Shown in pieces: positions 8,192 through 32,722 of a stretch of DNA of 33,415 bases. The position numbers and the translations under genes were made by a program. The stretch comes from an uncultured Cellvibrio sp. (GTDB lineage: Bacteria; Pseudomonadota; Gammaproteobacteria; Pseudomonadales; Cellvibrionaceae): the NCBI GenBank assembly GCA_903858205.1, contig CAIOHY010000125.1, forward strand, positions 1 to 33,415, written 5' to 3'. The notes below the pieces were generated by a model. The model did no database searches. It was given only the letters and a program-made list of their open reading frames with translations, and was not told where the DNA came from. Positions within the stretch are counted from its first letter, which is position 1, and each line of letters begins with the position of its first letter.

Positions 8192-8251
8192 TGGTGAAAT
8201 TGCACGCTAAGGTTTTACCTGATCCCGCTCGTTGTCGAGAGGTGTATTGTG

Positions 8252-9097
8252 ATGAGATCCCGCTTGTTTTTGTTGCGCGCTTTTTCATGGAAGCGACCAA
8301 ACATTTTATTTTTAATAAATGTGCACAGGCTATTTTTCGCAAGCTCGTTTCTGTTTATCGCGTCGCCAATAGTTGCGGAACAAATACCTGCTCCAATCAG
8401 CACAGCTGCTAGCGAGGTTTTAAATTACACAATGCCAAAGTTTCCGCCAGAGCTAATCGGGGCGAAGATGGGCGATGGTGAAGCAGTAGTCGTGATTACT
8501 ATTGATGATCATGGCAAGGTGGACGATAGCCTGGCGTTAGAGGCGACTAATGACGCTTTTGCTAATGCAGCTACTAGCGCCGTTAGTGAATGGTTGTTCA
8601 AACCGATCAGCGCGATGGCTGCCAATTCGGCAATGTCCAATTCGGCAATGTCCAATTCGGCAATGTCCGATGCGGCAACATCGTCGCCGCGCCGTGAGGT
8701 GTTGCAATTTAATTTCAAACGCTCTGGCGTAGTGACCACCATGACCCATTCCGACGCAGCGAAGGATGCATTTGTGGGAACCCGCGGCCCTGAAGTGCGC
8801 ACAGTGGCCTGGAATGCGTTGGACAGCGCCCCGCGACCCATCAAAGTTGATATGCCTCAACTTCCTCCTTCCACTTCAGCAAAACGCGACAAAACACCTC
8901 TGGTCATTAATTTTGTAATTGATCGGCAAGGTCACGTGCGTGTTCCGGTAATACGGGGTGCGGCTGATCCCGCCTTGGCTAAGGCTGTGCTGTCCGCAGT
9001 AAAAACCTGGCGGTACACACCGCCTATGCAACAAAAACAGGCGGTTGCAGTCGAGGTGACTAACGCCTTGGTGTTGCCCGATCCGATTGCTCAATAG
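8252..9097 (+). CDS. Exported protein with two TonB C-terminal-like domains
   Basis: The protein is 281 aa from the ATG at 8252; an adjacent GTG at 8249 is equally possible, with GAGAGG just upstream. A long basic N-terminus leads into a hydrophobic segment (FFASSFLFIASPIVAEQ) that looks like a signal peptide or anchor. Domain 1 (about 55-150) reads like TonB_C: AVVVITIDDHGKVDDSLALE followed by AATSAVSEWLFKPI. Domain 2 (about 190-280) is clearer: LVINFVIDRQGHVRVPVIRG and AVLSAVKTWRYTPP. A Ser/Ala/Met/Asn-rich linker made of a 15-bp tandem repeat interrupts domain 1. The Pro-rich spacer of true TonB is missing and no ExbB/ExbD is adjacent, so it is probably not a classical energy transducer. 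Its function is unknown; position suggests a link to the amidases. Confidence 0.75.
   Translation: MRSRLFLLRAFSWKRPNILFLINVHRLFFASSFLFIASPIVAEQIPAPISTAASEVLNYTMPKFPPELIGAKMGDGEAVVVITIDDHGKVDDSLALEATNDAFANAATSAVSEWLFKPISAMAANSAMSNSAMSNSAMSDAATSSPRREVLQFNFKRSGVVTTMTHSDAAKDAFVGTRGPEVRTVAWNALDSAPRPIKVDMPQLPPSTSAKRDKTPLVINFVIDRQGHVRVPVIRGAADPALAKAVLSAVKTWRYTPPMQQKQAVAVEVTNALVLPDPIAQ
8624..8668 (+). repeat. Tandem repeat, 3 x 15 bp, inside the TonB_C-like gene
   Basis: The unit AATTCGGCAATGTCC occurs three times without mismatch, followed by a degenerate fourth copy (GATGCGGCAACATCG). It keeps the reading frame and encodes repeated NSAMS. Copy-number change by slippage would add or remove five residues. 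Confidence 0.95.
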
Positions 9098-17445: not shown

Positions 17446-19542
17446 ATGCAGCCGTCATGGGATCACACCGGTGTGAATGTCGAGGCAATGGCACCGGCAG
17501 ACTTGTTGGCCCATAGGCGTTCGCTGCCGCGCTTTCAGCGCGCCGCTATTCAGGCCGGGATTTTACGGCGGGTGTTAGTGGTAGGTATCCTATTAGTCGG
17601 GCTTTTGTGGTGGTTATTGACTTTGCCTACACCCGCCGGGGTGGTTATGTGGCAAGCCTTATTAGTGACTTATCTGGCGACCTTGCTGGTGTTAGTGGCC
17701 GCCGTTTATTCCGTCTGGTGGAGCGCGCGCTGGCGCGCTCAGGCTCTGGTCGAGTCGGTGATTTCCGCCACGCCTAGCGATCATTTACCACCGACAGTAT
17801 CACCCTCCATGAATGCCGCTCAGCCCGGTTGGCGGCGGCGACTGGTTCAGCGGCTCTCCCGCATTGCGGTTTCCAGCGCGACTTATCTGCGCGCCCGGTT
17901 CAGTGCTATTGGCGCCATCCTGGGCGTGAGTGTGTTTGCTCTGCTGGCGTTGATGGTGGTTATTGGCAACTGGAATACAGCGGCCATTCCTGCGCCATCC
18001 AGTGATAGTTCCATCGCTGTATTCGCCGGCATCCCGCTGGTGCTGCTACTGGTGGTGGGTCTGTTGTCGCTGGCGTTTGCCATGTTGGTGGTCGAGCGCT
18101 ACTACGCTGGCAACCGTTCTAAAGAATTACCGGAAGCCGTTGTTGTAGTGTGTTTTTTGCGCGTTAGCATGACCCTCTCGCTGTTGCTCTGTGTAGCCCT
18201 ATTGCTGGTGGATAGCGAACGGCAATGGCCACTCACAGTGATATCCTGGTTGGCGCTCTTGCCCGCAGCGATTGCGGTTGAACTCTTGCTGCGCACCCTT
18301 CTTACCCTCTTTTCCCCACCACACCGACAGGCTGAGCCAGAGCTTTTGGCCACCAGCCTCATTGCCGCTATGTGGCGCTGGCCCATCCAACCGTTCAGGC
18401 ATTTTCAAGACGAACTGAAAGAGCGTTTTGGCGTAGATCTTCGCCAGAGCTGGGCCTTCGCCTATATGCGCCGCGCCTGCCTGCCAGTAGCGGCAGTGTT
18501 GTTGGGGATTGCCTGGCTACTGAGTGGATTGGTGGAGATCGGCATTGCCGAACGCGGAATCTACGAACGCTTCGGCGCACCTGTGGCGGTATGGCAATCG
18601 GGTTTGCACTTGGGCTTGCCTTGGCCCTTGGGCCGAGTCCAGAGACTGGAAAAGGGCGTTGTCCACGAACTGGCGACGGCCTCCGCCACTGACGATGGCG
18701 CCCAACCGGCACAGACTCTGGTGGAAACGGTTGAAGATCCCGCGCCTGTGGCCGCCAATCGTTTGTGGGATGCCTCACATGTTGCCGAAAAATCGCAAAT
18801 TATCGCCAGCGAGGTCGTCACATCGGCGGGCATTCGCCAGAGTTTTCACATCGTCAACATGGATGTGCGGTTTATGTACCGTATCGGCCTCTCGGACGAG
18901 GCTGCCTTGAAAGCGCACTACCACAATGCCGATGTCCCAGCACTGATTCGCAGCGCCGCTAACCGCATTCTGGTGCGTTATTTTGCATCGCGTACGCTGG
19001 AAGGGGTGTTGGGCGATGCACGTCGGCAACTGGCTTTGGATATAGGGCAGCAACTGCAGACAGATTTGGATGGGCTGAATAGTGGTGTGGAAATAATGGC
19101 AACGGTGCTGGAGGCAATTCATCCGCCTGCGGCAGCGGCCAATGCCTATCACTCGGTGCAGGCGGCGCAGATTAATGCGAGCGCGATTATTGCTCGGGAG
19201 CGCGGTAACGCTGCCCAAACGGTCAACCTTGCCCAGGTGCGTGCAGGCATTGCGCGTGACCAAGCAACGGCCGGTGCCCGTGAGACTCTGGCCACTGCCG
19301 AAGTTGCCGAACGGCGCTTCAGTGCGGAGCAAGTGGCTTATCAACAGGGTGGTAAGGCCTTTCTTTGGGAACAGTATTTCGCACAGCTGGTAAAGGGGTT
19401 GGGCGATGCGTCGTTCACATTAATTGATCACCGTCTGGCCAACGCCAATGCCACTATCGACTTGCGTCGCTTTGCATTGGGCGACAGCTCGCCGGTCTCA
19501 TCAACGACCGGTTCAGCGCCGGTCAACGCCGCTGAGGAGTGA
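17446..19542 (+). CDS. Seven-TM membrane protein with C-terminal SPFH (HflK-like) domain
   Basis: This 698-aa protein has about seven hydrophobic helices in its N-terminal half (approximately 42-60, 68-91, 152-174, 191-215, 229-254, 260-289, 343-365). An SPFH/Band-7 domain then follows, with IAERGIYERFGAPVAVWQSG and GLHLGLPWPLGRVQRLEKG, the HflK-type 'G.h...P.P......' signature. Residues 540-640 are Ala/Glu/Arg/Gln-rich (QAAQINASAIIARERGNAAQ), typical of the SPFH coiled-coil stalk. True HflK has a single N-terminal helix, so the extra six-helix block is unusual. The Shine-Dalgarno at the ATG is weak; an internal ATG at 17488 (preceded by GAGG) is an alternative. It starts the operon with two more SPFH genes and a P1B ATPase. 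GC content is well above that of the upstream genes. Confidence 0.8.
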   Translation: MQPSWDHTGVNVEAMAPADLLAHRRSLPRFQRAAIQAGILRRVLVVGILLVGLLWWLLTLPTPAGVVMWQALLVTYLATLLVLVAAVYSVWWSARWRAQALVESVISATPSDHLPPTVSPSMNAAQPGWRRRLVQRLSRIAVSSATYLRARFSAIGAILGVSVFALLALMVVIGNWNTAAIPAPSSDSSIAVFAGIPLVLLLVVGLLSLAFAMLVVERYYAGNRSKELPEAVVVVCFLRVSMTLSLLLCVALLLVDSERQWPLTVISWLALLPAAIAVELLLRTLLTLFSPPHRQAEPELLATSLIAAMWRWPIQPFRHFQDELKERFGVDLRQSWAFAYMRRACLPVAAVLLGIAWLLSGLVEIGIAERGIYERFGAPVAVWQSGLHLGLPWPLGRVQRLEKGVVHELATASATDDGAQPAQTLVETVEDPAPVAANRLWDASHVAEKSQIIASEVVTSAGIRQSFHIVNMDVRFMYRIGLSDEAALKAHYHNADVPALIRSAANRILVRYFASRTLEGVLGDARRQLALDIGQQLQTDLDGLNSGVEIMATVLEAIHPPAAAANAYHSVQAAQINASAIIARERGNAAQTVNLAQVRAGIARDQATAGARETLATAEVAERRFSAEQVAYQQGGKAFLWEQYFAQLVKGLGDASFTLIDHRLANANATIDLRRFALGDSSPVSSTTGSAPVNAAEE

Positions 19543-19545
19543 TTT

Positions 19546-20682
19546 GTGGCTGCCGACACGTCCCATACCGATGCCCATACCCATGATCACGACGACGAAT
19601 GTGACGGCCATGGTCATCACAACCACCACAACCACAACCACAACCACAACCACAACCATAGCCACGGTCATGGCCACAGTCATGGTCATCACGGCCATCA
19701 CCACGGCCCGCGCCCGACGGGGGGCAAGTTTCCCTGGGTGCGCATGCTGGTAGCGGTGCTCCTGCTCAGCGTGGCATTGATGGCGGCCAGCCTGGTGCAG
19801 GTGCGAGCGGGATTGGCGTCGGTAGTGACGCGGTTTGGCAACCCGGTGCGGGTGTTGATTGAACCTGGTTTAGCGCTGCGCTGGCCTGCACCGTTTGAGT
19901 CGATCATCCCGGTGGACTTGCGCTTGCGCACCACCTCCAGCGGGTTGCAGGACGTAGGCACGAGGGATGGTTTACGCATTATTGTGCAGGCCTACGTCGG
20001 CTGGCAGGTAAGGCCGGATGCCGAGCATGTGCAACGGTTTATGCGCGCGGTGCAAAACAAGCCGGACGAAACCGCGCGCCAGATTCGCACGCTGGTAGGC
20101 TCCGCGTTGGAGACAACGGCAGCCTCGTTTGATCTCGCCCATTTGATCAATACCAATCCAGCTGAGGTTCGGCTCGCGGATTTTGAAGCGAAACTGGCGC
20201 AGCAGATCAATCAGCAGCTCCTGAATACCTACGGTGTTCATGTGCTGCAGGTTGGGGTAGAGCGGTTGACGCTACCCTCAGTCACCTTGTCCGCCACCGT
20301 AGATCGCATGCGCGCCGAGCGCGACACTATTGCGATTGAGCGCACAGCAGTGGGTAAGCGTCAGGCGGCGGATATCCGCTCAGCCGCCGAGCGCGATGCT
20401 CGTGTGATTCAGGCGGATGCCCTGGCGGAAGCCGCGCGCATTGAAGCCCAGTCGCGGGTTGATGCCGCTGCGCTCTACGGTCGCTCGTACAAAGATGCCC
20501 CTGAGCTATACAGCCTGTTGCGTTCACTCGATACCCTGGGCGCCATTATCAACCCGCAGACACGTTTGATCTTACGCACCGATGCCGCTCCGTTTCGGGT
20601 GCTAGTCGATGCGCCACGCGCGATAGGCGAGTCGCGCCCCACCGATACTGCTCCGGCAGGAGGGAATCGTGCAGAGCGCTGA
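19546..20682 (+). CDS. SPFH/Band-7 protein (HflC-like) with His-rich N-terminal tail
   Basis: This 378-aa protein starts at a GTG preceded by GAGGAG (8-base spacing), only 3 bp after the previous stop. Residues 1-53 contain 23 His, mixed with Asp, Asn and Gly (DAHTHDHDDECDGHGHH, then alternating HN and HG), a likely Zn/Ni/Co/Cu-binding tail. One helix follows (about 65-84), then an SPFH domain (GLASVVTRFGNPVRVLIEPG, LALRWPAPFESIIPVDLRLR) and the basic/Ala coiled-coil region (AERDARVIQADALAEAARIEAQ) typical of HflC. If topology follows HflC, the His tail is cytoplasmic and the SPFH domain periplasmic. No FtsH gene is nearby. A role in metal handling with the downstream P1B ATPase is inferred. 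Confidence 0.85.
   Translation: MAADTSHTDAHTHDHDDECDGHGHHNHHNHNHNHNHNHSHGHGHSHGHHGHHHGPRPTGGKFPWVRMLVAVLLLSVALMAASLVQVRAGLASVVTRFGNPVRVLIEPGLALRWPAPFESIIPVDLRLRTTSSGLQDVGTRDGLRIIVQAYVGWQVRPDAEHVQRFMRAVQNKPDETARQIRTLVGSALETTAASFDLAHLINTNPAEVRLADFEAKLAQQINQQLLNTYGVHVLQVGVERLTLPSVTLSATVDRMRAERDTIAIERTAVGKRQAADIRSAAERDARVIQADALAEAARIEAQSRVDAAALYGRSYKDAPELYSLLRSLDTLGAIINPQTRLILRTDAAPFRVLVDAPRAIGESRPTDTAPAGGNRAER
19629..19658 (+). repeat. Hexanucleotide repeat (CAACCA)5 encoding the His-Asn tail
   Basis: Five perfect CAACCA units sit inside the His-rich tail of the HflC-like gene, coding for alternating His and Asn. Slippage in 6-bp steps would preserve the frame and change the number of His residues. 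Further CAC/CAT codons flank it. Confidence 0.95.
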
Positions 20683-21736
20683 TGCTCCAACAATCACTTC
20701 TGCCAGCCCCTGGTTGCAGGCGATCAGCATCGCGTTTGTGCTGTTTTATGTGTTTACGCTGTTAGCGGCGCTGCGCTGGTTAACCACCAATGTCATGGAG
20801 GTGGGCGCCGGGCACCGTGCGGTGGTTATTCATGGTGGCGCTATAGCGCGGGAGCAGACATCCGGCCTGCTGTGGGCGTGGCCCGAGCCGATCGACCGCG
20901 TGGTGCTGGTGCCCTCGGCCGAGACAGTGCTGGAGCGACATGTGCAGAACCTGCAGCGCTCCCTGCAAGCGGTTAACGCGGAAGCCGCAGCCTATGATGA
21001 TGACGAAGGCGGTGCCCTAACCGATGCTCTGGCGGGCTCGGGTTATCTGCTCACCGGGGATGGCGCCATAGTGCAGTTGGATGTGCGTCTGTTTTACAAA
21101 GTCACCGATTCCTACTCCTACGTGCTCAATTTTGATTACCTTTTGCCCGCGCTGGATCGGCTGGTCACCCGCAGTGCGGTGGTGGTGGCCGCCGCGCGCG
21201 ATCTCGATACTATTCTGGTCGCACGCCCCGAACTCTTGCAGCATGGCAGTGCCGATGCCACCCAACGCGAGCAACTGCGCCACGACCTGCTCGCCGATAT
21301 CAACCGTCGCCTTGCCGATCTACAGCTGAACGGCAGTGGCCTGGGGGTTGAGGCCCTGCGGGTCGATATCCAATCGGCGCTACCGCGCGCCACCTTAAAT
21401 GCATTCAATGCCGTACTCACCGCCAGCCAGCAGGCCGAGCAAGGGGTTGCCGATGCCCGTTCCGATGCTGCGCGCATTATCCAGCAGGCCACCCAGGAAG
21501 CCGATCGCAGCCTGCAAATCGCCAGCGCCAGCGCCGCCGAGAGACTCGCAAAAGCCGAGGCGGATACCGCTAGTATCGCCTACTTGAGCACATCACTGCG
21601 CGATCGCACTGAACCGGAATTGTTGATGCGGGTATATCGCGAACGGCTGCCGGGCATCCTTCAGCGGGCGGGTAGCGTCATCACTATGGATGCGGATAAA
21701 GATGTGCCACTGATCATTTCCGGGGTGAATCCATGA
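20669..21736 (+). CDS. SPFH/Band-7 protein (HflK-like), third in operon
   Basis: This 355-aa protein starts at a GTG with AGGAGGG five bases upstream and overlaps the preceding gene by 14 bp. One N-terminal helix (about 15-38, LQAISIAFVLFYVFTLLAAL) is followed by an SPFH domain: VMEVGAGHRAVVIHGGAIAR, TSGLLWAWPEPIDRVVLVPS, GYLLTGDGAIVQLDVRLFYKV. That last block matches HflK ('mLTgDeNiv.v...v.yrv'). The stalk is Ala/Gln/Asp-rich (DARSDAARIIQQATQEADRS). The acidic insert AAAYDDDEGGALTDAL is unusual. It presumably hetero-oligomerises with the other two SPFH proteins. It ends in an ATGA overlap with the ATPase gene, so the whole operon is translationally coupled. Confidence 0.85.
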   Translation: MQSADAPTITSASPWLQAISIAFVLFYVFTLLAALRWLTTNVMEVGAGHRAVVIHGGAIAREQTSGLLWAWPEPIDRVVLVPSAETVLERHVQNLQRSLQAVNAEAAAYDDDEGGALTDALAGSGYLLTGDGAIVQLDVRLFYKVTDSYSYVLNFDYLLPALDRLVTRSAVVVAAARDLDTILVARPELLQHGSADATQREQLRHDLLADINRRLADLQLNGSGLGVEALRVDIQSALPRATLNAFNAVLTASQQAEQGVADARSDAARIIQQATQEADRSLQIASASAAERLAKAEADTASIAYLSTSLRDRTEPELLMRVYRERLPGILQRAGSVITMDADKDVPLIISGVNP

Positions 21737-23655
21737 GCCAGAGTTCTGTTCCTCCTGCGCCTTCCATCCTCAGCCATGCCGAACAGCGCGTGGCGGCGCT
21801 GCAACTCACTCTGGCGATGCTGGCGCTCGGTTTATTCAGCCTCGGGCTGCTGTGGCGATGGTGGTTGCCAGCGCAAACCGGAGTCAGTGAATTACTCCTA
21901 GGGGCAGCGGCGCTACTGGTGGCGCTGCCTGTGATCAGGGCAGGGTGGTTTGCACTGCGCTACCCCGATCTACATGGGGTGACGGATTTATTAATCGCAA
22001 TGGCCATGATTGGCGCCTGGGCCGTAGGCGATTTGCTCACGGCGGTGCTCTTGCCCATCGTGATGATCTTTGGGCATGTACTGGAAGAGCGGAGCGTTAT
22101 AGGTTCCCACGAGGCCATCGCCTCCCTCGCGCAACTGACCCGCACCCAGGCAAGGCGCATCGAGGCTGACGGCTCGGTGGCTCTGGTCACTAACAGCGAG
22201 TTGCATAAAGGCGACAAAGTAGAGGTGCGCGCCGGGGATCGCATCCCCGCCGACGGGCGTGTACTCAGCGGTCAGGCGAGTTTGGATACCGCGCCTATCA
22301 CCGGCGAATCCGTTCCAGTTGAGGTCAGTCCGGGGCAGGACGTGTTTGGCGGTGCGATCAATCTGGATGGACTCCTGTGTATACAGGTCACCCGTACCGG
22401 GCAGGATTCCACGCTCGGGCGAGTTATCGCCCTGATGCAAGATGCAGAACAGGCCAAGCCGCCGATCACCCGCCTGCTTGAGCGCTATGCCAGTCAGTAC
22501 TTGATTCTGGTGTTATTAATTGCCGCCTTAACCTGGTTTCTCTCAAACAATGCTCAGGCCATGCTCGCCGTGTTGGTGGCGGCCTGCCCCTGCGCATTGG
22601 CGCTTTCGGCACCGGCAACGTCAATTGCGGGGATTGCCGTTGCTGCGCGCCATGGAATTCTGATTCGCGGTTCGGCATTTCTGGAAGAACTAGCGGATAC
22701 CAGTTCCTTGATCATCGATAAAACCGGGACTCTGAGCACCGGCGCATTGCGGTTGCATCAGCAACGCTTCGGGGCGGATGTGGATGCTGATTTCGCCCTG
22801 CGTTTGGCCGCCAGTTTAGGGGCCGCAAGTAGTCATCCGGTGAGCCGCACAGTCGCCGCGCAAGTCAGCCCCGAGTCCTATCTTCCGTTGGAGGATGTGC
22901 GTGAGCGCTCCGGTTTAGGGGTAGTTGCGCGGCTTGCCGGTCGGCCTGCCGTGGTGGCACTTGGGCGGCCGGAATTGCTGACTCAGTTGGGCATCGCGGG
23001 GATCAATCCGCCTGAGCACGATGGGTCCTTGGTCGGCGTGGCGATTGATCAGAAACTGCTGGGTTGGCTGCTGCTGGCGGACACCCTGCGGCCAGAGGCA
23101 GTCGCTGCTATGGCCGATTTGCGTGACCAGGGTCTGGTGCGCCACACCCTGTTAACGGGCGACAGGCGCAGCGTCGCCGAGACGGTGGCCAAGCGTGTAG
23201 GTATAGAGCGGGTGATAGCCCAAGCCTTGCCCGAGGAAAAATTGCACTGTGTCAAAACCGAGATAGAGGCGGGCTTTCGTCCGATGGTGGTGGGCGACGG
23301 CATTAATGATTCGCTCGCCCTGAAAGCGGGTGTGGTCGGCGTGGCGATGGGCGTCGGCGGTTCCGACATCGCCTTGGCATCGGCCGATGTGGTGTTAATC
23401 GGCAGCGATCTGCGCCGCTTGGGTACCTGCTTACGCCTGAGCCGCCAGTGCCGCAGTACCTTGATCGCCAATGTGATCATTGGCTTGGGTTGGACGCTGG
23501 CCATTGTACTGGCAGCGGCGTTTGGCTGGCTGGGTGCGGAAGGTGCACTGGTAGCGGCGATTCTGCACAACCTCAGTACATTGCTGGTGTTGGGCAACGC
23601 CGGGCGATTGTTACGCTTTCAAGAGTTTTTGCCCAGATTGAGCCTGCAACCCTAG
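21733..23655 (+). CDS. P1B-type heavy-metal-transporting ATPase lacking HMA domain
   Basis: This 640-aa protein carries every catalytic P-type ATPase motif: TGES (190-193, actuator), CPC in TM4-equivalent AACPCALAL (285-287), DKTGT (329-333, phosphorylated Asp), SSHP (the P1B-specific HP motif, His368) and GDGINDS (521-527). It pumps a metal ion out of the cytoplasm at the cost of ATP. There is no N-terminal HMA/CxxC metal-binding domain. The final helices read NVIIGLGWTLAIV and LHNLSTLLVLGNAGRLLRF. ZntA-type pumps have a Lys in the first and an Asp in the second, both absent here, so Zn/Cd specificity cannot be assumed. It overlaps the SPFH gene by 4 bp (ATGA). The His-rich SPFH partner may replace the missing metal-binding domain (inference). 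Confidence 0.93.
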   Translation: MSQSSVPPAPSILSHAEQRVAALQLTLAMLALGLFSLGLLWRWWLPAQTGVSELLLGAAALLVALPVIRAGWFALRYPDLHGVTDLLIAMAMIGAWAVGDLLTAVLLPIVMIFGHVLEERSVIGSHEAIASLAQLTRTQARRIEADGSVALVTNSELHKGDKVEVRAGDRIPADGRVLSGQASLDTAPITGESVPVEVSPGQDVFGGAINLDGLLCIQVTRTGQDSTLGRVIALMQDAEQAKPPITRLLERYASQYLILVLLIAALTWFLSNNAQAMLAVLVAACPCALALSAPATSIAGIAVAARHGILIRGSAFLEELADTSSLIIDKTGTLSTGALRLHQQRFGADVDADFALRLAASLGAASSHPVSRTVAAQVSPESYLPLEDVRERSGLGVVARLAGRPAVVALGRPELLTQLGIAGINPPEHDGSLVGVAIDQKLLGWLLLADTLRPEAVAAMADLRDQGLVRHTLLTGDRRSVAETVAKRVGIERVIAQALPEEKLHCVKTEIEAGFRPMVVGDGINDSLALKAGVVGVAMGVGGSDIALASADVVLIGSDLRRLGTCLRLSRQCRSTLIANVIIGLGWTLAIVLAAAFGWLGAEGALVAAILHNLSTLLVLGNAGRLLRFQEFLPRLSLQP

Positions 23656-23695
23656 CGTAAAAGGTGGGGGAAAGTGTTCCCGGTGCGTCCTTGTT

Positions 23696-27140: not shown

Positions 27141-27926
27141 ATGAACCAAAAACCTAAATGCGTAATTCGTTCAGTCATTATGGCTGCTTGCGCTAGTTCT
27201 GTACTTTTAGTGATGGCCCAAGGGGTTAGTGCAGCAGACGCTAATACTGTCAATGTTGCGGTTGCTGAACAGACTAAAACTGAACAGGCAGCCGTAGCGT
27301 CGCAGAAAAAAATTGTAGCGCTGGATGATGAGGCCAGTAACTCTGTTGCCAGTTATCGGCAGATGATTGCCGAAGCACAAAGTTTGAAAGGCTACAACGA
27401 GCAGATTGCTGCGCAGGTTGAATCACAGCAGGGTCAAATCATAGAAATGACCGGGCAGATCGAAACTATTGAAACCACGTCGCGCGAAGTATTGCCACTA
27501 ATGGACAAAATGCTTGACGCATTAGTGTCTTTTGTTGCTCTCGATGTGCCCTTTCTACCGGAGGAGCGCAAAAACCGTCTCGCGCAATTGCAGGCAATGA
27601 TGGCGCGCGCTGATGTTTCTACATCAGAAAAATATCGCCGTCTCGTTGAGGCTTACCAAATCGAAGTTGAATATGGTCGCACCATCGAGGTGTACCAAGG
27701 TAAGGTCGACGAAAAAACCGTTGAATTTTTGCGTAGCGGACGTGTGTCACTGATGTATCAATCTCGCGATGGAAAAGAAACGGGTTATTGGGATATCGAC
27801 GCCAAGAAATGGGTGATTGATAACTCCTACAGCGGCTACATGATTGAAGCGCTCAAAGTTGCTAAAAAGCAATCTGCTCCAAACTTTCTTGAGGTTGCCA
27901 TTAATTCTCCAAAGGAGGTTAAGTAA
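27141..27926 (+). CDS. DUF3450 periplasmic coiled-coil protein, first gene of TonB operon
   Basis: This 261-aa exported protein has a signal peptide (SVIMAACASSVLLVMAQGVSAAD) and a long Gln/Glu/Ala coiled coil (about 40-110). It then has the DUF3450 features VPFLPEERKNRLAQLQ, YRRLVEAYQIEVEYGRTIEVYQG and a beta-rich GRVSLMYQSRDGKETGYWD. DUF3450 proteins are regularly encoded at the head of TonB2-type operons with a large TolQ-like protein; their precise job is not established. The stop overlaps the next start (TAATG) and AAGGAGG at its 3' end serves the next gene, so coupling is tight. A palindrome lies in its leader. Confidence 0.9.
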   Translation: MNQKPKCVIRSVIMAACASSVLLVMAQGVSAADANTVNVAVAEQTKTEQAAVASQKKIVALDDEASNSVASYRQMIAEAQSLKGYNEQIAAQVESQQGQIIEMTGQIETIETTSREVLPLMDKMLDALVSFVALDVPFLPEERKNRLAQLQAMMARADVSTSEKYRRLVEAYQIEVEYGRTIEVYQGKVDEKTVEFLRSGRVSLMYQSRDGKETGYWDIDAKKWVIDNSYSGYMIEALKVAKKQSAPNFLEVAINSPKEVK

Positions 27927-29320
27927 TGAAAAATCTATATCTTTCAAAACTCATCGCGTTGGGTGTAATGACTTTCTCGCTCGGCGTCACTTCTGTACAG
28001 GCACAAACGCCAGCCAGTTTGGATGACCTGCTTGAGCAAACACGTAATGTTCGTGCGGCGGAAGCAAAAGTGAATGCTGAGCGGGAAGCGAAGTTTTTAG
28101 CAGAACGCGACAATCAGGTAAGCTTGATGAATCAAGCGCGTGCTGATTTAAATGAGCAACAACAACGCAGCGCGCAACTTACATCTACCTTCGACGCAAA
28201 TGAGAAAACGCTCACGGATCTCCAGGAACAGTTGGATGCGCGCGCGGGAAATCTGGGTGAAATGTTCGGTGTGGTGCGTCAAGTCGCAAACGATTTTTCA
28301 TCGGTAGTAACTAACTCAATGATCAGCGCCCAGTTTCCGGGGCGTGCTGCATTTACAACTGGCTTGGCGCAATCAAAAGCACTGCCGTCGATTAATGATC
28401 TCGAACGTTTCTGGTTTGAATTACAACGTGAAATGACCGAGACCGGAAAGGTTGTTAAATATAAAACAAAAATTATTACCGCTGAAGGCAATACCGAAGA
28501 CGGGGAAGTCGTTCGTGTCGGCCCCTTTACTGCCCTCTCGAATGGTAAGTACATGGCTTATCTACCTACCCAAGAACAACTTGCCGTTATGGCACGTCAA
28601 CCCGGTTCCAAATATGAAACTCCCGCTCGGGATTTCTCGGAAAGTGAAAGCGGTTATGCGAAAGGAATTATTGATCCTACGCGCGGCACACTCTTATCCA
28701 TTTATGCGCAGCGCCCAACATTGTGGGAGCGTGTCGAAACGGGCGAAGCGGTGGGCTATGTGATCATCGTTGTGGGTATTTTAGGGTTTGTTTTAGGCCT
28801 GTACCAACTGTTCTACTTGACGCTCGTGCGCAACAAAGTTCGCGATCAACTGAATTTCCTTACAGATCCGCAACCGACAAATCCGCTTGGCCGCGTCTTG
28901 GCAACATTCAAAGGTGCAGATACGGAGAAGTTGGAAATGTCCGCAGAAGTTGTCGAGCTGCGAATTTCCGAAGCGGTACTAAAAGAAATTCCGGCGCTGG
29001 AGCGTTATCAATCCCTGCTCAAACTCTGTGTGGCGGCAGGACCTTTACTGGGCTTGGTTGGTACGGTAGTGGGAATGATCATAACCTTCCAGGTTATTAC
29101 TGAATCGGGATCAAGTGATCCTAAGTTGATGGCTGCCGGTATCTCCGCTGCGATGATCGCTACGGTATTGGGTTTGGGAATCGCGATCCCGCTACTGTTT
29201 ATGAACGCATGGTTAGTTTCTCTATCCAAATCCGTCACCCAAGTCTTGGACGAGCAAAGCGCTGGCCTGTTGGCAGAACGTCTGGAGGCCCTGGAGGCAC
29301 AGGGGAAAAAATATGCTTGA
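27926..29320 (+). CDS. Large MotA/TolQ/ExbB proton-channel protein (TtpC-like)
   Basis: This 464-aa protein has a signal peptide (LIALGVMTFSLGVTSVQAQ), a periplasmic coiled-coil region (about 28-110), a further periplasmic domain to about 270, then the TolQ/ExbB membrane part. Helix 1 is AVGYVIIVVGILGFVLGLYQLFYL. The diagnostic block is LKLCVAAGPLLGLVGTVVGMIITF, followed by GISAAMIATVLGLGIAIPLLF. This N-terminally extended ExbB type matches TtpC of the Vibrio TonB2 systems, which works with ExbB2/ExbD2 and TonB2. It probably couples the proton gradient to TonB. It overlaps ExbB by 8 bp. Confidence 0.92.
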   Translation: MKNLYLSKLIALGVMTFSLGVTSVQAQTPASLDDLLEQTRNVRAAEAKVNAEREAKFLAERDNQVSLMNQARADLNEQQQRSAQLTSTFDANEKTLTDLQEQLDARAGNLGEMFGVVRQVANDFSSVVTNSMISAQFPGRAAFTTGLAQSKALPSINDLERFWFELQREMTETGKVVKYKTKIITAEGNTEDGEVVRVGPFTALSNGKYMAYLPTQEQLAVMARQPGSKYETPARDFSESESGYAKGIIDPTRGTLLSIYAQRPTLWERVETGEAVGYVIIVVGILGFVLGLYQLFYLTLVRNKVRDQLNFLTDPQPTNPLGRVLATFKGADTEKLEMSAEVVELRISEAVLKEIPALERYQSLLKLCVAAGPLLGLVGTVVGMIITFQVITESGSSDPKLMAAGISAAMIATVLGLGIAIPLLFMNAWLVSLSKSVTQVLDEQSAGLLAERLEALEAQGKKYA

Positions 29321-29837
29321 TCTAATCATGGCACCCTATTACTCGCTCGTGTCTATGCGTCAACTCGGTGGTCCGGTAGTCGATTATATATTCATCAGCT
29401 GCGTGATTATGTGGACCATCGTGTTAGAGCGTGTCTGGTACTTCAACAAAGTATTGCCGGAGTTGACCTCGACCAGTTTGGCAAAGTGGCATGCCCGCTC
29501 GCACAAAATGAGCTGGGCTTCACGCCAGATCAGAGCAGCGATGATCTCGCGGCTCAACTCCGGCATGAACCACAACTTACTGGTTTTAGGCGTGTTAGTT
29601 CCAATGTGCCCTCTCTTGGGTTTGGTGGGAACCGTGGTGGGGATGTTGAGCGTTTTCGACTCTATGGCGGCACTAGGTTCGGCAGATGCAAGGTCCATGG
29701 CGACGGGCGTTTCCGAAGCCATGATCTGCACCCTCACGGGGCTTTCTGTAAGTATGTCAGGATTGTATCCGGTGTATTTTTTCAGAAAAAAAGTATCCAG
29801 AGAGACCGAACGATTAGCTGATAAATTTTCATTTTAG
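29313..29837 (+). CDS. exbB: ExbB proton-channel subunit
   Basis: This 174-aa protein is of the short ExbB form found in TonB2 operons. It has an N-terminal helix (GPVVDYIFISCVIMWTIVLERVWYF) and the conserved pair of helices with VPMCPLLGLVGTVVGMLSVFD and MATGVSEAMICTLTGLSVSM. Together with ExbD it forms the proton-driven motor in the inner membrane. The start is an ATG overlapping the 3' end of the TtpC-like gene by 8 bp. The following gap of 64 bp is the largest inside the operon. Confidence 0.93.
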   Translation: MLDLIMAPYYSLVSMRQLGGPVVDYIFISCVIMWTIVLERVWYFNKVLPELTSTSLAKWHARSHKMSWASRQIRAAMISRLNSGMNHNLLVLGVLVPMCPLLGLVGTVVGMLSVFDSMAALGSADARSMATGVSEAMICTLTGLSVSMSGLYPVYFFRKKVSRETERLADKFSF

Positions 29838-29901
29838 CAGTGATGATATCCAGTAAATTTTATTCGCTATCAGTCGGTGCGAATACAGTGGGAGTTAGGG
29901 T

Positions 29902-30315
29902 ATGCGATTAAAAAGACGAATGTCTGCAACATCGGATGAAACCGGAATTGATCTGGCACCCATGCTCGATTTCGTTCTCAATCTCCTGATATTTTTCATT
30001 ATCACTGCTGTATTTGCCAAAGAAGTGGGGTTGACAGTGAGTCGCCCCAACTCTTCAGCAGCAACAGAGAAAAAAGAAGCAGGAAGTATCGTGATCGTTA
30101 TTGATGCTGCCGGAAAAATCCTTGTGGATAAAAAAGGCGTTGATGTGCGTGCGGTACGCGCAAGTATCGAACGGTTGCACGCGCAACGTCCTGATGACTC
30201 GGTGGTTGTGGTCGCTGAAAAAGGCGCGCAGACCGGCATATTAGTGCAGGTCATTGATCAGGTTCGTCAGGGCGGAATTCAAAATGTTTCTATAGCTGCA
30301 TCTGAGCGAGGTTAG
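29902..30315 (+). CDS. exbD: ExbD biopolymer transport protein, copy 1
   Basis: This 137-aa protein has one N-terminal helix (MLDFVLNLLIFFIITAVFAK) that carries the essential membrane Asp in GIDLAPMLDFVLN, and a periplasmic ExbD domain. IVIVIDAAGKILVDKKGVD and VVVVAEKGAQTGILVQVIDQVRQGGIQNVSIA are typical. It has GGGAG before the ATG. It is paired 5 bp upstream of a second ExbD of identical length; the two share the membrane block but diverge in the periplasmic domain, so they may form a hetero-dimer. Confidence 0.94.
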   Translation: MRLKRRMSATSDETGIDLAPMLDFVLNLLIFFIITAVFAKEVGLTVSRPNSSAATEKKEAGSIVIVIDAAGKILVDKKGVDVRAVRASIERLHAQRPDDSVVVVAEKGAQTGILVQVIDQVRQGGIQNVSIAASERG

Positions 30316-30320
30316 TTGAA

Positions 30321-30734
30321 ATGATCATAAAACGTCATAGTGAAGAGAGTGAAGAAACAGGCATAGATTTAGCGCCAATGCTCGACTTCGTGCTCAATCT
30401 ACTTATCTTTTTTATTATCACCACTTCGTTTGTCAAAGAATCCGGCATCTCAGTGAATAAACAATTAGCGATGACTGGCGAGAGCCAGGAGTCAGGGAAT
30501 ATTCTTATTGCCATACGCCCCAACGGTGACATCTGGATGGATAAACGACGAGTCGATATACGCGAAGTGCGTCCGTTAATTGAAAAGATGCACGTTGAAC
30601 GTGTAGAAGATACGGTAGTGATTATTGCTGACCGTGAATCACAAACTGACGTTCTCACAAAAGTGATGGATGCAGTTAAAGCCGGTGGAATTGCTGAAGT
30701 ATCAATTGCTACCTTATCTGGCGATGAGGGGTAA
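30321..30734 (+). CDS. exbD: ExbD biopolymer transport protein, copy 2
   Basis: This 137-aa paralogue of the preceding gene shares ETGIDLAPMLDFVLNLLIFF with the essential membrane Asp. Its periplasmic part, ILIAIRPNGDIWMDKRRVDI and VLTKVMDAVKAGGIAEVSIA, differs. The stop TAA overlaps the TonB start by one base. Two ExbDs per ExbB unit are common in this type of operon. Confidence 0.94.
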   Translation: MIIKRHSEESEETGIDLAPMLDFVLNLLIFFIITTSFVKESGISVNKQLAMTGESQESGNILIAIRPNGDIWMDKRRVDIREVRPLIEKMHVERVEDTVVIIADRESQTDVLTKVMDAVKAGGIAEVSIATLSGDEG

Positions 30735-31396
30735 TGATGATGAACAGCACTGTACCCGCTAAGAACGCCTGGCTCGCCAAAAGTGTTTCTATTCCGGCTG
30801 CCTTACTTGCACTTCTACTTACGCTAATCATGTTTGCCATGATGCACGCAATCATTACGGGTGTGCATGGCGGGCCCGAGGCAAAAGAGGCGTTGCCGAC
30901 GATTGATTTTGTGCGGTTGAAACGCGACTCAGAACCAGAATCCTTATCCAGAAAAAAACCGCCACCACCAGCACCACCGCCACCACCGCCAGCCAAAATG
31001 AAAGTGACTGCCGCTGCGGCGCCAATGGAAGGGTTGTCCGGCATGGAAATTCCCGATCTGAATCTCGATGCAAATCTTGGCGGGAGCGCGATGGGGGGAA
31101 CAAAAGCGATGTTTGATGGCGACATAATTCCTTTGCAATGTCCACCCGTTTCATATCCGAGTGATGCACGCAGAGCAGGGTTGTCCGGATGGGTACAAAT
31201 TGAATTTGTGGTGGGGCCCGATGGATCGGTGCGCAGCGCGAAAGCGGTCGATGCAAAACCACGCGGCGTATTTGAGGCTGCTGCAGTTGTCGCTGCACAA
31301 CGCTGTCGGTTTAAACCAAAAATGGTTGACGGAAAACCGGTTGAGCAACGTGGACGTAGAAAGTGGAACTTTGATTTAAGCAAGCCTGCGGGGTAA
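30734..31396 (+). CDS. tonB: TonB energy transducer
   Basis: This 220-aa protein has an N-terminal helix (SVSIPAALLALLLTLIMFAMMHAII), a Pro-rich spacer (KKPPPPAPPPPPPAKMK) and a C-terminal TonB domain: YPSDARRAGLSGWVQIEFVVGPDGSVRSAKAV followed by AAVVAAQRCRFKPKMVDGKPV. The spacer is shorter than in E. coli TonB, as in TonB2-type proteins. It transfers proton-motive energy to outer-membrane receptors. A Cys pair (LQCPPV and QRCRF) could form a disulfide, as in some TonB homologues. It is followed after 5 bp by the TPR gene. Confidence 0.94.
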   Translation: MMMNSTVPAKNAWLAKSVSIPAALLALLLTLIMFAMMHAIITGVHGGPEAKEALPTIDFVRLKRDSEPESLSRKKPPPPAPPPPPPAKMKVTAAAAPMEGLSGMEIPDLNLDANLGGSAMGGTKAMFDGDIIPLQCPPVSYPSDARRAGLSGWVQIEFVVGPDGSVRSAKAVDAKPRGVFEAAAVVAAQRCRFKPKMVDGKPVEQRGRRKWNFDLSKPAG

Positions 31397-31401
31397 ACAG
31401 C

Positions 31402-32667
31402 ATGAAAAAAAGTGAATCCAGACTCAGACGAAAAATGGTTGCACTATTCATTGTGCTCGGCATGAGCTTTATTCCTAACCTAACGCTTGCAGTCGAGTGT
31501 GGCAAAGAAGAGCCACAGGAGGGTGCAGAGTTAGGCGAGGATACTTATGGCACTGTGCAGACAGCGACTGAATTACTAGGCAAAGAAAAATATGCCGAAG
31601 CAATTGAGAAGCTCAGCAAGATTGCCGACAAGGGCTCTGATTATGAAAAAGCCTTAGTCAATTACAATCTCGGGTTGGCGTACAGTGCAAAAGAAGATTT
31701 CCCCGGTGCTACAGCAGCATTCGCAAAAGCACTGGTGACAGATTCATTGCCGCGTGCCAACCGTGAGCAGTTACGTTTCAACCTCGGTCAGCTTTATATT
31801 GTTACTGGGAAATATGATGAGGGCATCACAACGCTGATGAAGTACCTCGAAACAGCTTGCGGAACAATTCCCGCAGAAGCGCATATTTTTCTAGCCAATG
31901 CTCTGTCGGAACGTAAACGCTATACGGAAGCCCTGCCGCAAATTGATTTGGCAGTATCGAAAGCGAAAGAAATAAAAGAGCAGTGGCTACAAATGAAGTT
32001 AGCCATTAGTTACGAATTAAAGGATTATAAAACCTCGGCAGAATCCTTGGTGCAGCTCATCGTTAAGGTGCCAGGCAAGCCTGAATATTGGCGGCAACTG
32101 TCCAGCGTGCTCTACGAAATGAAAAATGAAACTGAGTCTTTAGCGGTTCTTGCGCTTGCTGAAGAACAAGGTTTTCTGGAAAAGCCTACTGAAATTAAAA
32201 ATCTCTACAGTGTGTACATGACGTTAGAGTCGCCATACAAGGCCGGCAAATTGTTAGAAGATGCAATGGCAAAAAATATTATGCCAGCAGACGAAACCAA
32301 TTTGAGTTCTCTATCCGATGCATGGATCAACGCCCGAGAAGTGGAAAAAGCTGAAACCACACTGAAAAAGTTGGCGTCCATGTCAGAGAAGGGGGATTAC
32401 TACTACAAGCTAGGTGCCATGTACGGTGATAATGAGCGATGGGAAGAATCCAGAGACATGATCAATAAAGCCTTGCAGAAAGGTGGATTGAAACGGCCAG
32501 GAGAAGTATGGATGCGCTTGGCGGTGGCGCAATACGGTTTGAAAGATAAGGTCGCCGCAATAGATGCGCTGCAAAAGGCCATTACTTTCGATGAGTCTCG
32601 TAAACAAGCCGACGAATGGCTGAGAGCCCTGACCGCGCAAGTCGCACTGGAAGAGGGAGAGTCGTAG
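31402..32667 (+). CDS. Exported TPR-repeat protein, last gene of TonB operon
   Basis: This 421-aa protein has a signal peptide (KMVALFIVLGMSFIPNLTLAVE) and repeated helical pairs of TPR type through its length, for example YEKALVNYNLGLAYSAKEDF, LRFNLGQLYIVTGKYDEGIT, YYYKLGAMYGDNERWEESRD and VWMRLAVAQYGLKDKVAAID. TPR proteins terminate many TonB2 operons and are thought to interact with the TonB complex in the periplasm; the precise partner here is unknown. The terminator at 32723 ends the operon. Confidence 0.9.
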   Translation: MKKSESRLRRKMVALFIVLGMSFIPNLTLAVECGKEEPQEGAELGEDTYGTVQTATELLGKEKYAEAIEKLSKIADKGSDYEKALVNYNLGLAYSAKEDFPGATAAFAKALVTDSLPRANREQLRFNLGQLYIVTGKYDEGITTLMKYLETACGTIPAEAHIFLANALSERKRYTEALPQIDLAVSKAKEIKEQWLQMKLAISYELKDYKTSAESLVQLIVKVPGKPEYWRQLSSVLYEMKNETESLAVLALAEEQGFLEKPTEIKNLYSVYMTLESPYKAGKLLEDAMAKNIMPADETNLSSLSDAWINAREVEKAETTLKKLASMSEKGDYYYKLGAMYGDNERWEESRDMINKALQKGGLKRPGEVWMRLAVAQYGLKDKVAAIDALQKAITFDESRKQADEWLRALTAQVALEEGES

Positions 32668-32722
32668 TAAATAATTGCTTGCAATTTCTGCAAGCAGTAA
32701 CACCATCAATGCGATAAAAAAT

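Follow-up and report, generated by a model that had tools for sequence, protein, structure and literature searches.

This report concerns four adjacent genes in a stretch of 33,415 nucleotides from an uncultured Cellvibrio sp. (contig CAIOHY010000125.1 of assembly GCA_903858205.1, positions 1 to 33,415), hereafter referred to as the window. The genes encode three proteins of the SPFH family, here called SPFH1, SPFH2 and SPFH3, followed by a P1B-type ATPase. According to the list of open reading frames (ORFs), they lie where an earlier note, made from the sequence alone, had placed them, with spacings of +3, -14 and -4 bp, and Pfam, NCBIfam and hydropathy analyses bear out the composition given there: a fusion of seven transmembrane (TM) segments with an SPFH domain, a His-rich HflC-like protein, an HflK-like protein, and a P1B ATPase without an HMA domain (Table 1). 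None of these features is to be expected by chance. The note had also deduced a fixed stoichiometry from the coupling of the genes, which gene overlap does not imply.

Table 1. Genes and features of the SPFH-ATPase module in the window.
Feature	Position	Strand	Size and start	Description	Orthologue assigned
SPFH1	17446..19542	+	698 aa ORF	7-TM domain (about residues 22-368), HflK-like SPFH domain and long C-terminal helix	PA2439/PaFlo5
N-terminal multi-TM domain of SPFH1	17509..18549	+		matches no recognised family	
SPFH2	19546..20682	+	378 aa, GTG start	HflC-like, one TM, His-rich N-terminal tail	PA2438/PaFlo6
His-rich tail of SPFH2	19561..19707	+	residues 6-54	predicted cytosolic	
SPFH3	20669..21736	+	355 aa, GTG start	HflK-like, one TM	PA2437/PaFlo7
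P1B ATPase	21733..23655	+	640 aa	without HMA domain	HmtA (PA2435)
CPC motif	22585..22593	+		metal motif in membrane helix M4 of the ATPase	
DKTGT motif	22717..22731	+		phosphorylation motif of the ATPase	
HNLST motif	23566..23580	+		last membrane helix of the ATPase	

The module is a genuine one, and it is conserved. When 84,980 species genomes were scanned, 444 stretches encoding a relative of SPFH1 were obtained, of which the best 80, mostly from Pseudomonas, were kept; the 87 loci that were inspected, the window included, are dominated by Pseudomonas, and their members are not independent of each other. All four genes are present in the same order, mostly with 4-bp overlaps, in 86 of these loci, which come from alpha-, beta- and gammaproteobacteria, the 87th being a contig of 3.3 kb that ends after SPFH1. 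This order is found on both chromosomes and plasmids, in Pseudomonas and Cellvibrionaceae as well as, by tblastn against plasmids, in Rhizobium, Burkholderia, Paraburkholderia and Klebsiella. When loci were ascertained through the ATPase alone, the SPFH3 gene was located immediately 5' of the ATPase gene in every case (34/34), and the ATPase itself is present in 121 of the 399 Pseudomonadaceae genomes. The pairwise distances of the four proteins correlate with r values of 0.94-0.98, which shows co-inheritance, not contact. A gene order unique to this genome, which the earlier note had named as a finding that would count against its proposal, was ruled out by the plasmid, genome and Pseudomonadaceae searches; a whole-class search with SPFH1 returned a single genome out of 369, this one. 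The three SPFH proteins and the ATPase thus constitute one conserved unit, as had been proposed.

The identity of this unit became evident by comparison with a genome, L153, that we take to belong to the P. aeruginosa group, as it contains the two 16S primer sites of P. aeruginosa at a distance of 956 bp. This genome encodes, in this order, an SPFH1 of 667 amino acids, a His-rich SPFH2 of 344, an SPFH3, an ORF of 162 and an ATPase of 662, and the proteins of the window are 48% (SPFH1), 71% (SPFH2), 57% (SPFH3) and 71% (ATPase, over 635 amino acids) identical to their counterparts. The additional ORF, located between SPFH3 and the pump (L153:8481-8969), has the look of an exported, PA2436-like protein, and is missing from the window. 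Judging from these similarities, the module is orthologous to the PA2439-PA2438-PA2437-(PA2436)-hmtA(PA2435) operon of P. aeruginosa, and therefore it is not the undescribed system that the earlier note had seen in it, being already known as the Pseudomonas hmtA operon (PMC4542158, PMC8531726, PMC11761036). PA2435 is the pump HmtA; for the SPFH genes PA2439-PA2437, the names paFlo5-7 were introduced in 2026 (PMC13086221), and the locus tags are matched in PMC9431628.

The ATPase matches the Pfam family E1-E2_ATPase (E 2.3e-51) and otherwise only HAD-type domains, with no HMA domain found by Pfam, and its score against the heavy-metal P-type ATPase model TIGR01525 (523 bits) is above the cut-off. 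The CPC motif in M4 is invariant across 86/86 ATPases, each of which also contains DKTGT exactly once, whereas HN-x-[SG]-T is present in the last helix of 83 of them, at least two of the three unmatched ones being ORFs truncated by the end of the locus. Upon alignment with CoaT-type and ZntA structures, HNLST falls where ZntA has an Asp-containing motif, a position at which the 7qbz protein bears HEGST; it differs from both the Asp of ZntA and the SS of CopA. In addition, these ATPases have no lysine at the position of the ZntA M5 lysine. In combination, the CPC motif, HN-x-[SG]-T and the absent M5 lysine set this pump apart from both CopA and ZntA.

All three SPFH proteins match Band_7, the Pfam family of the SPFH domain (E 4.5e-16, 1.9e-28 and 2.1e-17 for SPFH1, SPFH2 and SPFH3, respectively), which spans residues 365-589 of SPFH1, and averaged hydropathy assigns seven TM segments to SPFH1, and one each to SPFH2 and SPFH3. 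SPFH2 matches a solved HflC structure. The three proteins are best classed, by profile, as HflK/C-like and not as HflK or HflC, because their scores against the equivalog models of the latter (TIGR01933/TIGR01932; 52, 99 and 74 bits) stay under the cut-offs (159, 134 and 159). When a tree was built from the SPFH parts, SPFH1, SPFH2 and SPFH3 each formed their own clade, and in every one of these clades the window joins the same two relatives. HflK and HflC of this genome are placed outside the three clades, on long branches and with an unsure deep placement. They are encoded elsewhere, in a housekeeping hflX-hflK-hflC set on contig C593, and a mis-call of housekeeping HflK/C as the trio is excluded because this separate set exists. 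The window contains no FtsH gene, as had been stated in the earlier note.

An AlphaFold (AF2) model of the 7-TM domain of SPFH1 is confidently helical, with a predicted local distance difference test score (pLDDT) of 81 and a predicted template modelling score (pTM) of 0.77. No fold match was found in the PDB at E<=0.001, nor a consistent Pfam match across 28 members, and the domain contains neither a conserved His nor a conserved Asp within a predicted TM segment. A transporter of the cation diffusion facilitator (CDF) type was considered and rejected, since CDF structures appear only at E>=4 and conserved metal residues are lacking. We read the domain as an anchor and not as a transporter. 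The full-length model of SPFH1 has a long HflK-like C-terminal helix (561-653), and no cage geometry is claimed here because its SPFH domain is unreliable (pLDDT <50).

The His-rich character that the earlier note had attributed to SPFH2 resides in a real and conserved N-terminus. A region with at least 7 His per 20 residues is present there in 85 of the 86 loci, the sole exception being Klebsiella, where it is instead the N-terminus of the ATPase that is His-rich; in some species, both proteins have such a tail. Every locus (86/86) thus has one on SPFH2 or on the ATPase. Both tails are predicted to be cytosolic, and would therefore seem to be exchangeable components of a single machine.

The response of this operon to zinc has been studied in P. 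aeruginosa. In a znuA mutant, PA2434, PA2435 and PA2437-PA2439 are upregulated 5.6-14.4-fold, and the predicted Zur site is weak (PMC4542158); the PA2439 promoter is bound by Zur when zinc is present (PMC8531726), and the operon proteins become more abundant upon zinc depletion (PMC11761036). Across our loci, the palindrome GTTATANNNTAAC, which resembles the published Zur box, occurs close to the SPFH1 start, allowing one mismatch at most, in 75/86, all of them from Pseudomonas, and in 0/1,720 control windows, taken from operon bodies; in the P. aeruginosa-group copy the box is weak too. In P. sprentiae, the operon adjoins ZigA and a zinc ATP-binding cassette importer. A separate observation is that a pair of MNIO (DUF692) and DUF2063 genes is located directly downstream of the operon in some 25 Pseudomonas loci (for example, L041:15294-16193 and L031:16171-16959). 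Such a pair is typical of copper-binding bufferins, making a link to copper possible.

As for the direction of transport, overexpression of HmtA leads to more cellular zinc and copper and to hypersensitivity to both, which was read as import (reviewed in PMC10393844 and PMC8456098), and the same reviews report import of Zn and Cu, but not of Ag or Cd. In E. coli, HmtA results in a greater acetate sensitivity, ascribed to metal influx (PMC5353632). The export proposed in the earlier note is consequently disfavoured: it is the less likely direction because import of Zn/Cu is reported for the orthologous pump, whose operon responds to zinc starvation and has its promoter bound by Zur.

Our favoured interpretation, held with slightly better than even confidence, is that of an HmtA-type operon in which a zinc- and copper-importing P1B pump would sit inside an HflK/C-like SPFH assembly with cytosolic His tails. 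Under scarcity, the ATPase would move zinc, and probably copper too, from the periplasm to the cytosol. The three SPFH proteins would together form a ring or cage of the HflK/C-like type, anchored in the membrane by the 7-TM domain of SPFH1, and their periplasmic SPFH domains would wall off the patch of inner membrane holding the pump, thereby stabilising or concentrating it. On the cytosolic side, the incoming ion would be buffered or accepted by the His-rich tail, which belongs to SPFH2 or, in some species, to the ATPase. A scaffold or cage around the pump, as the earlier note had also imagined, is a plausible role for the trio by analogy, with precedents in the stomatin rings around transporters (PMC12407830) and in the PacL1-CtpC platforms (PMC9374683), which are analogies only. 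The complete arrangement, in which a three-component SPFH cage, anchored by an undescribed 7-TM domain, encloses an importing P-type ATPase that passes its ion to a cytosolic histidine tail, is put forward tentatively, as a possibility that we rather doubt. If true, this would amount to a metal pump in a cage, and no bacterial SPFH assembly before it would have been shown to hold a transporter in place of a protease.

Several observations weigh against the importing, SPFH-enclosed pump. Deletion of paFlo5-7 caused only mild phenotypes, in tests apparently performed without zinc limitation (PMC13086221); added zinc did not repress hmtA mRNA in one study (PMC8531726); and, according to one review, import by HmtA still needs confirmation (PMC10393844). 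Furthermore, no Zur-like box is present near the operon in the window or in two Cellvibrionaceae relatives, and a search of the whole window allowing up to two mismatches returned a single, chance-level match at 32713. This genome has Zur-like boxes elsewhere, between znuA and zur-znuCB and near dksA2-zigA. The second of these loci (L175:2799-5112, contig C327) has a DksA-like gene, followed by a COG0523 (zigA-like) gene, and, in divergent orientation to the former, another gene of the Fur family (the second), with the Zur-like box between the two divergent genes; we read the DksA-like gene, which is without three of the usual cysteines, as dksA2-like, and the locus as a zinc-sparing locus of this genome. 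Because the box is missing at the operon though the genome uses such boxes elsewhere, Zur-mediated control of the operon is probably absent or indirect here, and may have been lost.

The alternative that survives best, which we consider unlikely, is a metal-efflux platform, where the ATPase would export Zn, Cu or Cd and the trio would act as its scaffold, comparable to PacL1 for the mycobacterial CtpC. Most P1B ATPases are exporters, and the nearest solved relatives of this one are exporters or named so. The missing Zur box, both here and in the two Cellvibrionaceae relatives, the upstream RND pump and adaptor, which belong to a family including metal-efflux systems, and the cytosolic His-rich tail, which would also suit the feeding of an exporter, all agree with efflux, and an operon-encoded scaffold with a metal motif, PacL1, does hold the P1B pump CtpC in membrane foci (PMC9374683). 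Against this stand the Zur-type palindrome upstream across the Pseudomonas loci, the zinc-starvation-induced and Zur-bound orthologous operon (PMC4542158, PMC8531726), and the rise in cellular Zn/Cu and in sensitivity reported for the 71%-identical orthologue (PMC10393844), leaving export by this pump as a minority reading.

FtsH is a zinc protease, and in E. coli it is bound by HflK and HflC. The trio could hence act on FtsH or on other quality-control proteases under metal stress, the ATPase being co-regulated only and not a physical partner. This is how the SPFH genes are interpreted by the authors of PMC11761036 and PMC9431628, and both the HflK/C-like profile of the trio and the match of SPFH2 to a solved HflC are in line with it. 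However, the scores of the trio stay below those required for HflK/HflC, its clades are distinct from the HflK and HflC of the genome (with the long branches and unsure deep placement mentioned above), and the strict linkage to the pump, together with a His tail on either partner, points to the pump, so that we regard an action on proteases as quite improbable. A general flotillin-like scaffold of lipid microdomains, kept in a metal operon for historical reasons and without a specific function for the pump, would fit the general organisation of membranes by SPFH proteins and the mild effects of the paFlo5-7 deletion (PMC13086221), but is very improbable given the strict co-occurrence, the overlaps and the co-inheritance over three proteobacterial classes.

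With respect to its origin in this lineage, the operon has a GC content at third codon positions (GC3) of 62-68%, compared to 47-53% in the genes just upstream, with an intermediate value (60%) in the formamidase gene at 23664, which suggests horizontal acquisition. Only two of the 21 same-genus genomes examined, counting that of the window, have the operon. The order amidase - RND adaptor - RND pump - amidase - operon - formamidase is kept in both operon-bearing relatives, and because of this recurrence, either the operon was acquired before this strain arose or the entire block was moved together. The surroundings are an amidase-rich cluster (4724-26958), with five amidase-signature proteins and one acetamidase/formamidase of the FmdA family around the RND adaptor and pump; its stretch between 9239 and 24884 is also found in two relatives (L008 and L009). 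The amidase-rich cluster adjoins an energising cluster (27141-32667) in the order DUF3450 - ExbB-type - ExbB - ExbD - ExbD - TonB - TPR, and a second TonB gene is located at 8249-9097.

Even though the operon has been listed in zinc regulons since 2015, the zinc papers and the SPFH study cited here do not connect. These zinc studies treat its SPFH genes as FtsH modulators (PMC11761036, PMC9431628), and text searches of the PA14 SPFH study (PMC13086221) found no mention of an ATPase; in the open-licence literature, no experiment combining the SPFH trio with HmtA was found. New here are the swappable His tail in every locus, the Zur-box palindrome in 75/86 loci, with none in Cellvibrionaceae, and the location of the operon in an amidase/RND cluster in this lineage, with its apparent horizontal acquisition. 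The question raised is whether an SPFH assembly encloses the P1B pump and whether this would explain its reported inward direction, and the conservation over three classes, together with the swappable tail, makes a direct test worthwhile.

Among known systems, the HflK-HflC pair of the FtsH complex shares with the trio the SPFH fold, the pairing of HflK-like and HflC-like chains, and the single TM segment of SPFH2 and SPFH3, whereas the trio differs in comprising three chains instead of two, in its 7-TM fusion, in the absence of FtsH and hflX/hfq from its neighbourhood, and in its scores under the cut-offs. The stomatin ring around aquaporin-1 and UT-B (PMC12407830) is likewise an SPFH ring enclosing membrane transporters, but it is eukaryotic, consists of a single SPFH protein and has no operon link, remaining an analogy only. 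In PacL1-CtpC from Mycobacterium (PMC9374683), a P1B ATPase is likewise encoded with a membrane scaffold bearing a metal-binding segment; however, PacL is a small DUF protein (DUF1490) and not an SPFH protein, and its function is zinc export, whereas the partners in the window are Band_7 proteins. Compared to the hmtA operon of P. aeruginosa, PA2439-PA2438-PA2437-PA2436-PA2435(-PA2434), the module in the window is without the PA2436-like exported ORF between SPFH3 and the pump and without the Zur-like box upstream, and is set within an amidase/RND/formamidase cluster, while both share the gene order, the four families, the His-rich tail of SPFH2, and the CPC and HNLST motifs.

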